Of a stretch of DNA of 64,000 bases, positions 48,760 through 52,811 are shown one piece after another. Both the position numbers and the translations under genes were made by a program. The notes below the pieces were generated by a model. It worked only from the letters and a program-made list of their open reading frames with translations, had not been told where the DNA came from and ran no database searches. Origin of the DNA: an uncultured Bacteroidota bacterium. GTDB lineage: Bacteria; Bacteroidota; Bacteroidia; Chitinophagales; Saprospiraceae. The DNA lies in contig CALMSX010000083.1 of assembly GCA_937872515.1 (NCBI GenBank), positions 124,001 through 188,000 on the forward strand, given 5' to 3'. Every line of letters starts with the position of its first letter. Within the stretch, counting starts at the first letter, position 1.

Positions 48760-48767
48760 TACTTTTG
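48760..48767 (+). promoter_or_regulatory. Promoter -7 box of the primary sigma factor gene
   Basis: TACTTTTG followed by C, 35 bases before the ATG at 48803. A TTTG (48731-48734) lies 25 bases upstream, slightly beyond the usual spacing. Confidence 0.5.
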
Positions 48768-48802: not shown

Positions 48803-49672
48803 ATGAGGCAATTAAAAATCACCAAATCCATTACCAACAGAGAGAGTCAGTCTCTTGAAAAATATCTACAGGAAATAGGCAAAGTTGACCTATTAACCCC
48901 TGAAGAGGAGGTGGATTTGGCCAAAAAGATAAAAGAAGGTGACCAGGAAGCACTTGAGAGGCTAACAAAAGCAAATTTGAGGTTTGTGGTTTCTGTTGCC
49001 AAACAATACCAAAATCAAGGTTTGTCGTTGTCTGATTTGATCAATGAAGGAAACCTGGGTTTGATTAAAGCGGCTCAACGTTTTGATGAAACCAGGGGTT
49101 TTAAGTTCATCTCCTATGCCGTTTGGTGGATTCGACAATCCATTCTGCAGGCATTGGCAGAACAGTCAAGGATTGTCCGTCTACCCCTTAACAAGGTAGG
49201 TTCACTCAATAAAATCAACCGTGCTTTTTCTGAATTGGAGCAGGAATTTGAAAGAGAACCCACTGCTGAGGAATTGGCAGAACTGCTAGACATACCTTCA
49301 GAAGAAGTTGAGACCACTCTTGGTGTGGCAGCTCGACACGTATCCATGGATGCACCATTTGCCGAAGGAGAAGACAACTCTCTGTTAGATGTATTGGAAA
49401 ACAATAGTTCTCCTGATACAGATGCAGGACTGGAATATGTTGAATCCCTGAGAACAGAAATTGAAAGGTCGCTCTCGACCCTGACTGACAGGCAATATGA
49501 TGTAATTAAGCTTTATTTTGGAATCGGAATTGAGCATCCTATGTCATTGGAAGATATTGGTGATAAATTTGGATTAACCCGTGAAAGGGTACGTCAAATC
49601 AAAGACAAGGCCATAAACAAGTTGCGTTCAACCAGTAAGAGCAAGTTGTTGAAAAATTACTTAGGTAGTTAA
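48803..49672 (+). CDS. rpoD: Primary (housekeeping) sigma factor RpoD/SigA
   Basis: This 289-aa protein begins with [27 protein letters not shown], the Bacteroidota SigA N-terminus, and lacks the large region 1.1 of E. coli. Regions 1.2 to 4 are intact: [45 protein letters not shown] (region 2.4), [12 protein letters not shown], and [28 protein letters not shown] (4.2 HTH). It is the sigma that would read the TAnnTTTG promoters found throughout the window. It is followed by a terminator that lies inside the next gene. Confidence 0.96.
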
Positions 49673-49677
49673 TACCT

Positions 49678-51732
49678 GTGATCCACAGTGGTCAATTGAT
49701 CTATCATATGATTTTAGTTTTTCAGAACATAAAAAAAAAGGCACTGATTTTCAGTGCCTTTTTCCTTTTATACGCACTTATTGCTCAAGGGCAAAAAGAT
49801 ACCATAGTTGTATTGGATAGCTTTGTGGTTACAGCCAGCCGACTACCTCAACCCGCAAATACACAAAACACCTATATTTCTTCGCCCATTGCTGCAGCAT
49901 TGGCGCAGGGAACGAGCATCAATGACTATATTCAGGCAGCTCCCGGTATATTCACTTTGAGCAACAATAATTACGCACAGGATAGTAGAATTACCAGTCG
50001 TGGCTTTGGTGCAAGGTCATCCTTTGGCATCAGGGGAATAAAAATCTGGGTGGATGATATTCCTGAAACAACACCCGATGGACAAAGTCAACTCGACAAT
50101 TTGGATTACCAACTGATCCACTCTACTGAAATTTTGAGGGGTCCCGATGCTGCTCTCTATGGCAATGTTTCAGGGGCGATGATTAAGATATATCCAACAC
50201 CCTTTGATAGTCTTAAAGAAGGCGTTAAAATTCGTCTTGCCGGTGGTAGTTTTGGATTCAGGCAGGCAGGCATTCAGCTGGTTCCCAAAACAGATAACTG
50301 GAAATGGCAGTTTGGATATGCTTATCAGGGAGCTGATGGATACCGAAAATGGTCGGCCTTCAACAATCATATTGGCAACATACGAGGGCGTTTTCAAAAA
50401 GGGGAGCATGAGCTTAAAATATTAATTAACGGTGTTTTTAACCCCCAGTCACAAGACCCCGGAGCGTTAAATTACATGGAAGCAGAAACCAACCCTCGGG
50501 AAGCCAGAAGCAATAACATCCAGTATAAAGCGGGAGAAAACTTACATCAGCAAAGAATGGCCTTGATTTACAAAAAGTCAGGAACCAAAACCTACCAGCA
50601 GTTAAAAGCATACTATCTCAACAGGCGTTTTTCCAACTTTCTTGCTTTTTCAACCTCGGGATGGGGAGAAATCAAAAGAAAGAACCACGGATTATACTAT
50701 GAAGTAGGCAACCTGCTAAAAAAAGGCAAGTTCAGCTGGATTGCAGGCGCAGACTGGCAGTACCAACAAGATTTCCGCAGCAACTATGACAATTTGCAAG
50801 GAGAAAAAGGGACGCTGCGCTTAGCCCAAAATGAAGTTTACAAAGATCTATCCGTTTACAGTTTGAATTCTTTTCAATTGACGCCCCGTTGCAGAGGAGA
50901 GGTGAACGTGAGGTTGTCAGCCATTCAGACTGCAATGGAGGATCACTTTCAAACCGATGGAGATCAATCAGGAATCAGAAATATTCAATCATTTAACCCC
51001 TCACTCAAATTGAGCTATCAACTCAACCGACAAATGAGTGTTAACTTTATCAATTCTACCGGATTTGAGTCCCCTACCCTGACCGAACTTTCTGTGTCGC
51101 CTGATGGTAAACCCGGTTTTAACCCTGCATTGAACAGTTCTAAAACGAGGCTTTATGAGGTACATTTTCATTATGGTACAACCACTGATCAGAGCCTAGA
51201 TATTCATTGGTTTCATGTATCGGGAAGCAATGAAATTATACCCTTCGAAATTCCATCTGCTCCGGGCAGGTTTTATTATGAAAATTCAGGCACTTCGAAC
51301 AGAAAAGGACTTGAACTTGCGGTTAAATGGCCCCTTTCTGACAAATACCAATTGGGATGGAATTACACCTATAACTATGCGTTCTTATTAAATGGGGCGG
51401 ACCCTATTCCTGGAATTCCTGTTTATGTACATCAGATACAATTAATGGCGCAACCCGTAAGAAAGCTGCAATTGAGGATAGATCACCAATTGGTAGGTAA
51501 AATCTACCTTTTGACAAATTCATCATCTTCCAGCAAATCGTACATAGAAGCCAATATACAAGCAGGCTATACCCTGGATCTGGCTAAACAAGCCCTTGTT
51601 TTTAACATTGGACTGAACAATCTCTACAACGCCAAGTACTATTCCAATATCCGAATTAACGCAACTGCCAACCGGTTTTATGAGTCTGCGCCTCCTACTC
51701 ATTTCTGGGCAGGGATCCAACTTTTGTGGTAA
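49678..51732 (+). CDS. TonB-dependent outer-membrane receptor
   Basis: This protein is 684 aa from the ATG at 49678; a Met at 49708 (MILVFQNIKKK) is the better start. The signal peptide is IKKKALIFSAFFLLYALIAQG. A TonB-box-like DSFVVTASR follows, then a plug domain (about 50-170; SINDYIQAAPGIFTL, RGFGARSSFGIRGI, EILRGPDAALYGNVSGAMI) and a beta-barrel ending with an aromatic residue (FWAGIQLLW). It resembles siderophore/vitamin-type receptors rather than SusC, which would carry a carboxypeptidase-like N-domain; the substrate is unknown. The sigma-factor terminator lies within its signal-peptide codons. Confidence 0.88.
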   Translation: MIHSGQLIYHMILVFQNIKKKALIFSAFFLLYALIAQGQKDTIVVLDSFVVTASRLPQPANTQNTYISSPIAAALAQGTSINDYIQAAPGIFTLSNNNYAQDSRITSRGFGARSSFGIRGIKIWVDDIPETTPDGQSQLDNLDYQLIHSTEILRGPDAALYGNVSGAMIKIYPTPFDSLKEGVKIRLAGGSFGFRQAGIQLVPKTDNWKWQFGYAYQGADGYRKWSAFNNHIGNIRGRFQKGEHELKILINGVFNPQSQDPGALNYMEAETNPREARSNNIQYKAGENLHQQRMALIYKKSGTKTYQQLKAYYLNRRFSNFLAFSTSGWGEIKRKNHGLYYEVGNLLKKGKFSWIAGADWQYQQDFRSNYDNLQGEKGTLRLAQNEVYKDLSVYSLNSFQLTPRCRGEVNVRLSAIQTAMEDHFQTDGDQSGIRNIQSFNPSLKLSYQLNRQMSVNFINSTGFESPTLTELSVSPDGKPGFNPALNSSKTRLYEVHFHYGTTTDQSLDIHWFHVSGSNEIIPFEIPSAPGRFYYENSGTSNRKGLELAVKWPLSDKYQLGWNYTYNYAFLLNGADPIPGIPVYVHQIQLMAQPVRKLQLRIDHQLVGKIYLLTNSSSSSKSYIEANIQAGYTLDLAKQALVFNIGLNNLYNAKYYSNIRINATANRFYESAPPTHFWAGIQLLW
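49731..49766 (+). terminator. Rho-independent terminator inside the receptor's signal-peptide codons
   Basis: Perfect GGCACTGA / TCAGTGCC arms (49740-49747, 49751-49758) extended by five A-T pairs to 13 bp, with a 3-nt loop and a flanking T run. It lies 59 bases after the sigma-factor stop, where a terminator for that gene is expected, yet inside the next ORF. Confidence 0.85.
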
Positions 51733-51878: not shown

Positions 51879-51908
51879 TTGCAAAGCTCCTTTTTTTTGG
51901 TAATTTTG
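51879..51908 (+). promoter_or_regulatory. Promoter of accD
   Basis: TTG (51879-51881), a 19-bp spacer, then TAATTTTG (51901-51908) followed by C. The ATG is 15 bases after the box. Confidence 0.72.
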
Positions 51909-51923
51909 CATGAAATTTGATTT

Positions 51924-52811
51924 ATGAGCTGGTTTAAGCGATTAAAAGACGGAATACAAACTGCAACAAAATCCAAAAAGGAAGCTCCCGATGGTTTATG
52001 GCATAAGTGTGAAAAGTGCAGCGAACTGTCTACTCATAAAGAATTGGACGAAAACCTGTACTGCTGTCCCAAGTGCGATCACCATGTCAGAATCGGATCA
52101 GAAAAATACTTCAACATCATTTTTGATGGAAAGTACACCCGATTATTTGACGAAATTGTTTCCAAGGACATTTTAAACTTTGTTGACCTAAAGTCATATC
52201 AAGACAGGCTGGACGCCATTTATCTAAAATCCGATGTTAGTGATGCCATTTCAGTTGCCAGTGGCAAAGTCAATAAAAAGCCATTGACAGTATGCGCTAT
52301 GGATTTCACCTTTATAGGGGGTTCAATGGGATCCGTGGTAGGTGAGAAAATATCAAGAGCTATAGACTATAGCATTGAAAATAAGACACCGCTGCTGATT
52401 ATCTCTAAATCCGGAGGTGCCAGAATGATGGAATCCGCCTTTTCTCTAATGCAAATGGCAAAGACCTCAGCAAAACTAACCCTGTTAGCCAAACACAAAC
52501 TCCCCTTCATTTCCCTGATGACCGATCCTACGACTGGTGGGGTTACGGCTAGTTTTGCCATGCTGGGTGACCTCAATATAGCAGAACCGGGAGCATTGAT
52601 TGGTTTTGCGGGACCCAGGGTAATCAAAGAGACCATAAAACGTGATTTACCGGAGGGCTTTCAAACAGCTGAATTTTTGATAGAAAAAGGCTTTTTAGAT
52701 TTCATCGTTAATAGAAAAGATCTAAAACAAAAGTTAGACGACTTGCTTACCATGTTTACCAATGTAGAAAGCGAGGCGGAACTTAATGAAGAGCCGGCTT
52801 CAGCTAGCTAA
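51924..52811 (+). CDS. accD: Acetyl-CoA carboxylase carboxyltransferase subunit beta
   Basis: This 295-aa protein has the AccD zinc finger C29xxC32...C48xxC51 (HKCEKCSELSTHK, LYCCPKCDHH) and the carboxyltransferase core with GGARMMESAFSLMQMAKTSAKL (about 168-189), PTTGGVTASFAMLGDL and IGFAGPRVIKETI. With AccA it transfers CO2 from biotin to acetyl-CoA to give malonyl-CoA for fatty acid synthesis. It is a single gene with its own promoter; the 3' end overlaps the convergent gldC by 8 bases. Confidence 0.96.
   Translation: MSWFKRLKDGIQTATKSKKEAPDGLWHKCEKCSELSTHKELDENLYCCPKCDHHVRIGSEKYFNIIFDGKYTRLFDEIVSKDILNFVDLKSYQDRLDAIYLKSDVSDAISVASGKVNKKPLTVCAMDFTFIGGSMGSVVGEKISRAIDYSIENKTPLLIISKSGGARMMESAFSLMQMAKTSAKLTLLAKHKLPFISLMTDPTTGGVTASFAMLGDLNIAEPGALIGFAGPRVIKETIKRDLPEGFQTAEFLIEKGFLDFIVNRKDLKQKLDDLLTMFTNVESEAELNEEPASAS

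Follow-up and report, generated by a model that had tools for sequence, protein, structure and literature searches.

A conserved terminator-like hairpin after rpoD lies within the signal-peptide codons of a TonB-dependent receptor gene in Saprospiraceae

Introduction

Can one short piece of DNA end the transcripts of a housekeeping sigma-factor gene and also encode part of the export signal of the next gene's product? The question is raised by the junction between rpoD and a TonB-dependent receptor gene in the window, by which we mean the whole 64,000-nucleotide stretch that was analysed (C83:124001-188000) from a 4.71 Mb genome of an uncultured member of the Saprospiraceae (G000). The plus-strand gene order there is rpoD, receptor and accD (coordinates in Table 1), and this order is also present in two congeneric genomes, the nearer relative G001 (receptor 69% identical) and the farther relative G002 (receptor 48% identical). 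An original prediction, made from the letters of this DNA, held that a perfect hairpin beyond the rpoD stop codon serves as the rpoD terminator and that the same bases encode part of the receptor's signal peptide. We report the structure, rarity and conservation of this hairpin, and weigh what it may do for the two genes that share it.

Table 1. Coordinates of the features at and around the rpoD-receptor junction, numbered from the first base of the window
Feature	Position	Strand	Basis or remark
Primary sigma factor gene, RpoD-like, 289 aa, regions 1.2, 2, 3 and 4	48803..49672	+	Pfam
Box TAAATTTG inside rpoD	49564..49571	+	Exact -7 consensus; no other exact box in the final 300 nt of rpoD
Spacer, 35 nt, rpoD stop to receptor ATG	49673..49707	+	Without an exact TAnnTTTG box
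TonB-dependent receptor gene, PqqU/YncD-like, 674 aa (684 from GTG 49678)	49708..51732	+	Pfam plug and barrel
Signal-peptide region MILVFQNIKKKALIFSAFFLLYALIAQG	49708..49791	+	End set by eye against homologues
Predicted terminator hairpin, inside the signal-peptide codons	49735..49763	+	Folding; kept in G001 and G002
U-rich tract TTTTTCCTTTTAT, counted from the last G-C pair	49759..49771	+	First five T are the stem end
accD, gene after the receptor	51924..52811	+	Pfam; TAnnTTTG box at 51901

Results

The hairpin reads AAAAAGGCACTGA-TTT-TCAGTGCCTTTTT, and the 13-bp perfect stem, 3-nt loop and T run of the original prediction were all confirmed. Five of the 13 pairs are G-C, and past a 2-nt bulge additional A-U pairs widen the structure to about 49729-49771. 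The distance of 59 bases from the rpoD stop codon that had been given holds if counting ends at the wider boundary, 49731; the perfect stem itself begins after a 62-nt spacer from the stop (49672), 27 nt into the receptor reading frame. A 46-nt segment spanning the hairpin folds at -19.0 kcal/mol (z -7.55), a value equalled by none of 200 shuffles, and the minimum-energy fold of the surrounding 121 nt keeps the hairpin (z -3.12; 2 of 200 shuffles equally good). Both parts of an intrinsic terminator are present, a stable G-C stem with a short loop and a U tract: the sequence directly 3' of the stem is CCTTTTAT, and that after the last G-C pair is TTTTTCCT, with T at six of eight positions. The predicted zone of rpoD transcript 3' ends is accordingly placed at 49759-49771, from the sequence. 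On the minus strand the same bases (49728-49773) fold at -21.2 kcal/mol and are followed by a longer T run of nine, so the hairpin may work in both directions, and antisense transcripts could be ended before they reach rpoD. An Rfam search returned four matches with E up to 1, none of which reached its gathering score; those to STnc40 cover the hairpin on both strands (49734-49808 minus and 49703-49764 plus; 30.2 and 25.4 bits, gathering score 45) and most likely reflect a generic hairpin.

Strong hairpins of this kind are rare within genes of the sampled genome. A strict hairpin rule was applied to 21 stretches of the window genome (416,442 bases, 293 ORFs of at least 150 aa) and returned 31 hairpins, 19 of them with at least 13 pairs, whereas eight dinucleotide shuffles returned one to five hairpins and none with at least 13 pairs. 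Twenty-eight of the 31 lie outside ORFs, two lie opposite an ORF (one of these at the window site) and the sole one within a same-strand ORF is that at the rpoD-receptor junction. In relatives, 88 loci totalling 385,174 bases, with some overlap between them, gave 32 hairpins under the same rule, of which 29 were outside ORFs, one was opposite an ORF (the G001 site) and two were within same-strand ORFs, namely the G001 copy and a hairpin in locus L024 (G014), where the ORF opens with a TTG 5 nt ahead of the hairpin, apparently a mis-called start. The G002 copy (loci L003 and L116) was missed by the strict rule, presumably through its limit on G-U pairs. Within the receptor ORFs of relatives, including loci L004-L030 and L082-L107, the rule found no hairpin except that of G001. 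A simpler terminator scan of 6 kb gave four sites against 6.3 +/- 2.5 in shuffles, and since it falls below its own shuffles only the strict rule carries weight; its other three sites have 5-7 pairs, compared with 13 at the junction. The site is conserved and unusual in its genome, with component parts of known kinds. A partial search of the literature, which is not proof of absence, returned no report of a natural terminator inside a signal peptide.

A terminator after rpoD is itself ordinary in this family. Across 71 of 72 rpoD loci, comprising the three with an adjacent receptor and 68 others, a hairpin with a T run was found within about 200 nt of rpoD in 38, compared with 0-4 of 71 in 20 shuffles, which supports the assignment of the hairpin to rpoD. 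The locus left out, L117 (G005), is one in which the rpoD stop was not placed; by eye, an imperfect inverted repeat and then a T run are seen downstream of rpoD there. The same rule gave no hairpin in the remaining 33 of 71, and a hairpin is thus not a constant need of rpoD. The next ORF, called by a simple longest-ORF rule, is on the same strand in 29 of the 71 loci, and 19 have both a hairpin and such an ORF. The hairpin is fully contained in the next ORF in three, all of them receptor-bearing, and it partly overlaps a doubtful start in two more. In those two, L126 and L154, the start is a GTG or TTG and an ATG follows, and these starts are probably mis-called. Location wholly inside the next gene was therefore found only in the receptor-bearing trio. 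Spacing is less distinctive: the hairpin starts 10-53 nt after the rpoD stop in 34 of the 35 other loci and at 106 nt in one, and the trio, at 52, 67 and 68 nt, stands at the far edge of the usual family range. The rpoD terminators of L037, L039, L054 and L132 have GGCAC or GCAC ... GTGCC or GTGC ends like those of the window hairpin, and inner stems unlike it.

The receptor frame is open through the hairpin from either GTG 49678 or ATG 49708, in agreement with the claim that the same bases encode signal-peptide residues. It had also been argued that no later Met leaves an export signal, and indeed the next in-frame Met codon after ATG 49708 is residue 158. The A-run of the hairpin encodes lysines, and the 3' arm and U-run encode part of the hydrophobic core. 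In G002 an in-frame ATG is lacking, and the candidate starts are a GTG before the hairpin and a TTG within the 5' arm; were the TTG used, folding of the hairpin would hide the start codon. Homologues elsewhere carry N-terminal peptides of their own (for example MLKGALIIISFCLVFVQLNGQ in G005), and the trio has the hairpin-coded part instead. The KGAL of the G005 peptide resembles the K(K/G)AL of the trio, and part of the peptide could, at 31% identity, predate the overlap. A broader idea, that terminators in general can read as signal peptides, was dropped: 4 of 183 frames from 61 terminators were signal-peptide-like, one of the four being the window hairpin itself, which is not clearly above dinucleotide shuffles (2.6 +/- 1.4) or random genomic segments (1.6 +/- 1.4).

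The receptor shares with PqqU/YncD receptors its plug and barrel, its best NCBIfam model and its best PDB matches (6v81 at 1.3e-50 and 9c4o at 1.1e-49), but it falls outside PqqU as curated by NCBIfam (NF041535), scoring 230.3 bits against a cut-off of 1200. A receptor of this PqqU/YncD-like kind is present in all six genus genomes, as is an rpoD that is 95-100% identical across the six genomes searched. In three of them it adjoins rpoD with accD next; in G003, G004 and G005 the receptor, rpoD and accD are each on a separate contig (three contigs). Receptor matches at E 1e-60 or better occur in 119 of 398 family genomes searched, with an identity of at least 48% in three and 29-36% in the others among the matches listed. 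Among 57 receptor loci with flanks of 1.5-3 kb or less, rpoD adjoins the receptor only in L001, L002, L031 and L003, of which L003 is the G002 locus and L031 is the same match as L002. A search for related loci likewise found L031 alone (JAGNSQ010000001.1, a Saprospiraceae MAG, with the same 69% match). The evidence on conservation below therefore spans three species, with two distinct versions of the stem.

Aligning the junction in relatives had been suggested as a check on the original prediction, and the pairing proves to be kept in both relatives found, G001 and G002. Between G000 and G001 the longest identical stretch in the receptor gene is 36 nt and lies over the hairpin, the next longest being 23 nt. 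Identity is 20/27 bases in the nine codons before the stem, 29/29 in the stem-loop, 18/31 in the following signal-peptide bases and 1366/1935 from residue 30 onward, and 21 bases are identical in a gapped alignment of the 35-nt spacer of G000 with the 34-nt spacer of G001. At residues unchanged in this single species pair, the codon is also identical in 9 of 9 cases wholly within the stem-loop, compared with 232 of 444 elsewhere (Fisher p 0.003). Of 666 windows of nine codons, four show complete identity, and these overlap one another at the hairpin. For the whole identical run, a region picked after it had been seen, the figures are 12/12 versus 226/437 codons (p 4.3e-4), and a run of at least 12 codon matches arose in 66 of 20,000 shuffles. 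Codon conservation in this pair thus exceeds what the protein needs. All the stem changes in G002 fall in the 5' arm, at three paired positions that become G-U or U-G, and the 3' arm stays the same; 13 of 13 pairs are thus retained, with none altered on both sides, in the same reading frame. Slid versions of the stem alignment pair at 38.5-61.5%; a shuffle control is uninformative with two distinct rows. The hairpin lies inside an open, conserved frame in all three species, the start codon in G002 being uncertain. Signal sequences are normally variable, and a constant peptide in such a sequence fits a constraint on the RNA. To judge from these alignments, the hairpin DNA appears to be constrained as RNA and as codons together.

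Promoters were sought as exact copies of TAnnTTTG, the Bacteroidota -7 box described in PMC7366714 and PMC9723704. This box precedes 48 of 147 genes with an upstream gap of at least 100 nt, compared with 8 of 147 control stretches within ORFs. For genes whose gap is shorter than 60 nt the count is 10 of 103. One precedes rpoD, at 48760, and that before accD means that accD need not depend on receptor transcription. No exact box was found between the rpoD stop and the hairpin; as 99 of the 147 wide-gap genes also have none, this absence is weak evidence. Between the genes, a 5-of-6 box (TACCTGTG) with TTG 21 nt upstream was considered in G000 and rejected, being found in neither G001 nor G002, as were 5-of-6 boxes just after the ATG (TAGTTTTT in G000, TAGCTTTC in G001), which have no full TTG upstream. 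By eye, TATTTTGC just before the ATG in G001 resembles the SM5 box described in PMC9723704. A promoter between rpoD and the receptor, offered in the original prediction as one source of receptor mRNA, has little support, and transcripts from any promoter there would still have to pass the hairpin, which lies downstream.

Discussion

We think it probable, with room for doubt, that rpoD has this hairpin as its intrinsic terminator and that the same bases double as receptor signal-peptide code, the receptor drawing a small share of transcription by readthrough. Polymerases leaving rpoD would come to the hairpin 62 nt past the stop codon, too far on for the last rpoD ribosome to reach, and only 27 nt past the receptor ATG, so early that no receptor ribosome could yet be close behind. 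The majority of rpoD transcripts would stop at the hairpin, and the minority that read through would be receptor mRNA, so that receptor output would amount to a small share of rpoD transcription. Such a low output would suit a high-affinity receptor for a trace compound. For E. coli, PMC4824070 reports that termination is maximal when the stop codon is more than 27 nt from the terminator, and that translation costs a terminator 30 bp after an AUG just about 10% of its efficiency. Set against that geometry, the 62 and 27 nt of the window imply that most rpoD transcripts end at the hairpin, if the geometry carries over; that between ribosome and polymerase in E. coli may not hold in Bacteroidota. 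Receptor mRNA should, on our analysis, come from readthrough or from a promoter inside rpoD.

The second of these sources, a receptor promoter in the 3' end of rpoD, would use the box TAAATTTG at 49564, and the hairpin would end the rpoD mRNA and trim the receptor message too. The match is exact in both G000 and G001, and such boxes are enriched upstream of genes as described above; but it sits in sigma-factor codons, reads CAAATTTG in G002, and carries little weight as a single match given the chance boxes in control stretches. The leader would also be roughly 130 nt long, compared with a median of 24 and a mean of 65 reported for F. psychrophilum in PMC9723704. We regard this arrangement as unlikely, and true attenuation as more so. 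In the latter, a ribosome starting early at 49708, or reinitiating after rpoD, would cover the 5' arm, allow polymerase through and make receptor transcription track translation. The stem indeed begins 27 nt from the A of the ATG, and a trailing ribosome is described in PMC5021804 as able to prevent terminator hairpins; against this, the closest published geometry is the one in which translation shifts termination by only about 10%, and no leader peptide with control codons is seen at the site. The original prediction spoke of a built-in attenuation point; compared with attenuation in a regulated sense, a constant throttle is the simpler reading, nothing signal-sensing having been found there.

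Two further explanations deny the overlap or the terminator itself. The receptor could start downstream of or inside the hairpin, the overlap being an accident of an open frame, as the lack of an in-frame ATG in G002 might suggest, where the TTG in the 5' arm gives MRYFSAFFILNHFQPVFSQ; the nine codons before the stem are moreover barely above gene-wide conservation (20/27 versus 1366/1935 bases, as above). We hold this to be very improbable: past the hairpin, the first possible start codon (ATG, GTG or TTG) in G000 and G001 is residue 36 or 35, beyond the signal peptide, and both have an ATG at precisely 27 nt ahead of the stem with no intervening gap. The palindrome, nearly symmetric in DNA, might instead be a protein-binding site, an explanation to which we give almost no credence. 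Searched at 0 mismatches, its core is found once in G000, once in G001 and nowhere in the four remaining genomes of the genus; the T tract persists, and the G002 changes retain RNA wobble pairs yet break the DNA symmetry.

Taken as the rpoD terminator, the hairpin shares with other intrinsic (Rho-independent) terminators a G-C stem, a short loop and a U tract, and differs in that its bases are at the same time signal-peptide codons of the gene that follows. The closest likeness is to the E. coli plasmid W48, in which, as PMC4824070 describes it, an upstream gene is followed by a start codon and by a terminator about 30 nt further on, so that the mRNA ends in a stopless ORF; W48 is a construct, whereas the present case is natural, occurs in three species and has a full receptor gene as its ORF. 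The terminator roughly halved the expression of the upstream gene in that construct, an effect that the authors put down to non-stop mRNA. Transcript 3' ends within E. coli coding regions and 5' UTRs, some at intrinsic terminators, are described in PMC7815308; unlike these, the window terminator would be that of the housekeeping gene before it, and it shares its bases with an export signal. Classical attenuators (pyrBI and amino-acid operons, named in PMC4824070) also have a terminator near a translated start where a ribosome could influence folding; as a difference, neither a leader peptide nor control codons were seen at the present site.

Terminators are usually treated as intergenic, and one strong hairpin here seems to be held by two constraints; start-codon calling alone, or terminator calling alone, would mis-annotate the site. 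If the terminator reading is true, each terminated rpoD mRNA would end in a start codon and about 20 stopless codons (MILVFQNIKKKALIFSAFFLL). More tentatively, translation of this tail would call on ribosome rescue and could make rpoD mRNA less stable, tying sigma-factor supply to the receptor start site. The junction offers a natural, conserved case in which to ask whether early-coding-region terminators escape ribosome control. We put forward, tentatively, that receptor expression in these Saprospiraceae may be set by leakage through a housekeeping sigma-factor terminator that was exapted as a signal peptide, in which case an uptake gene would depend on escape from that terminator.
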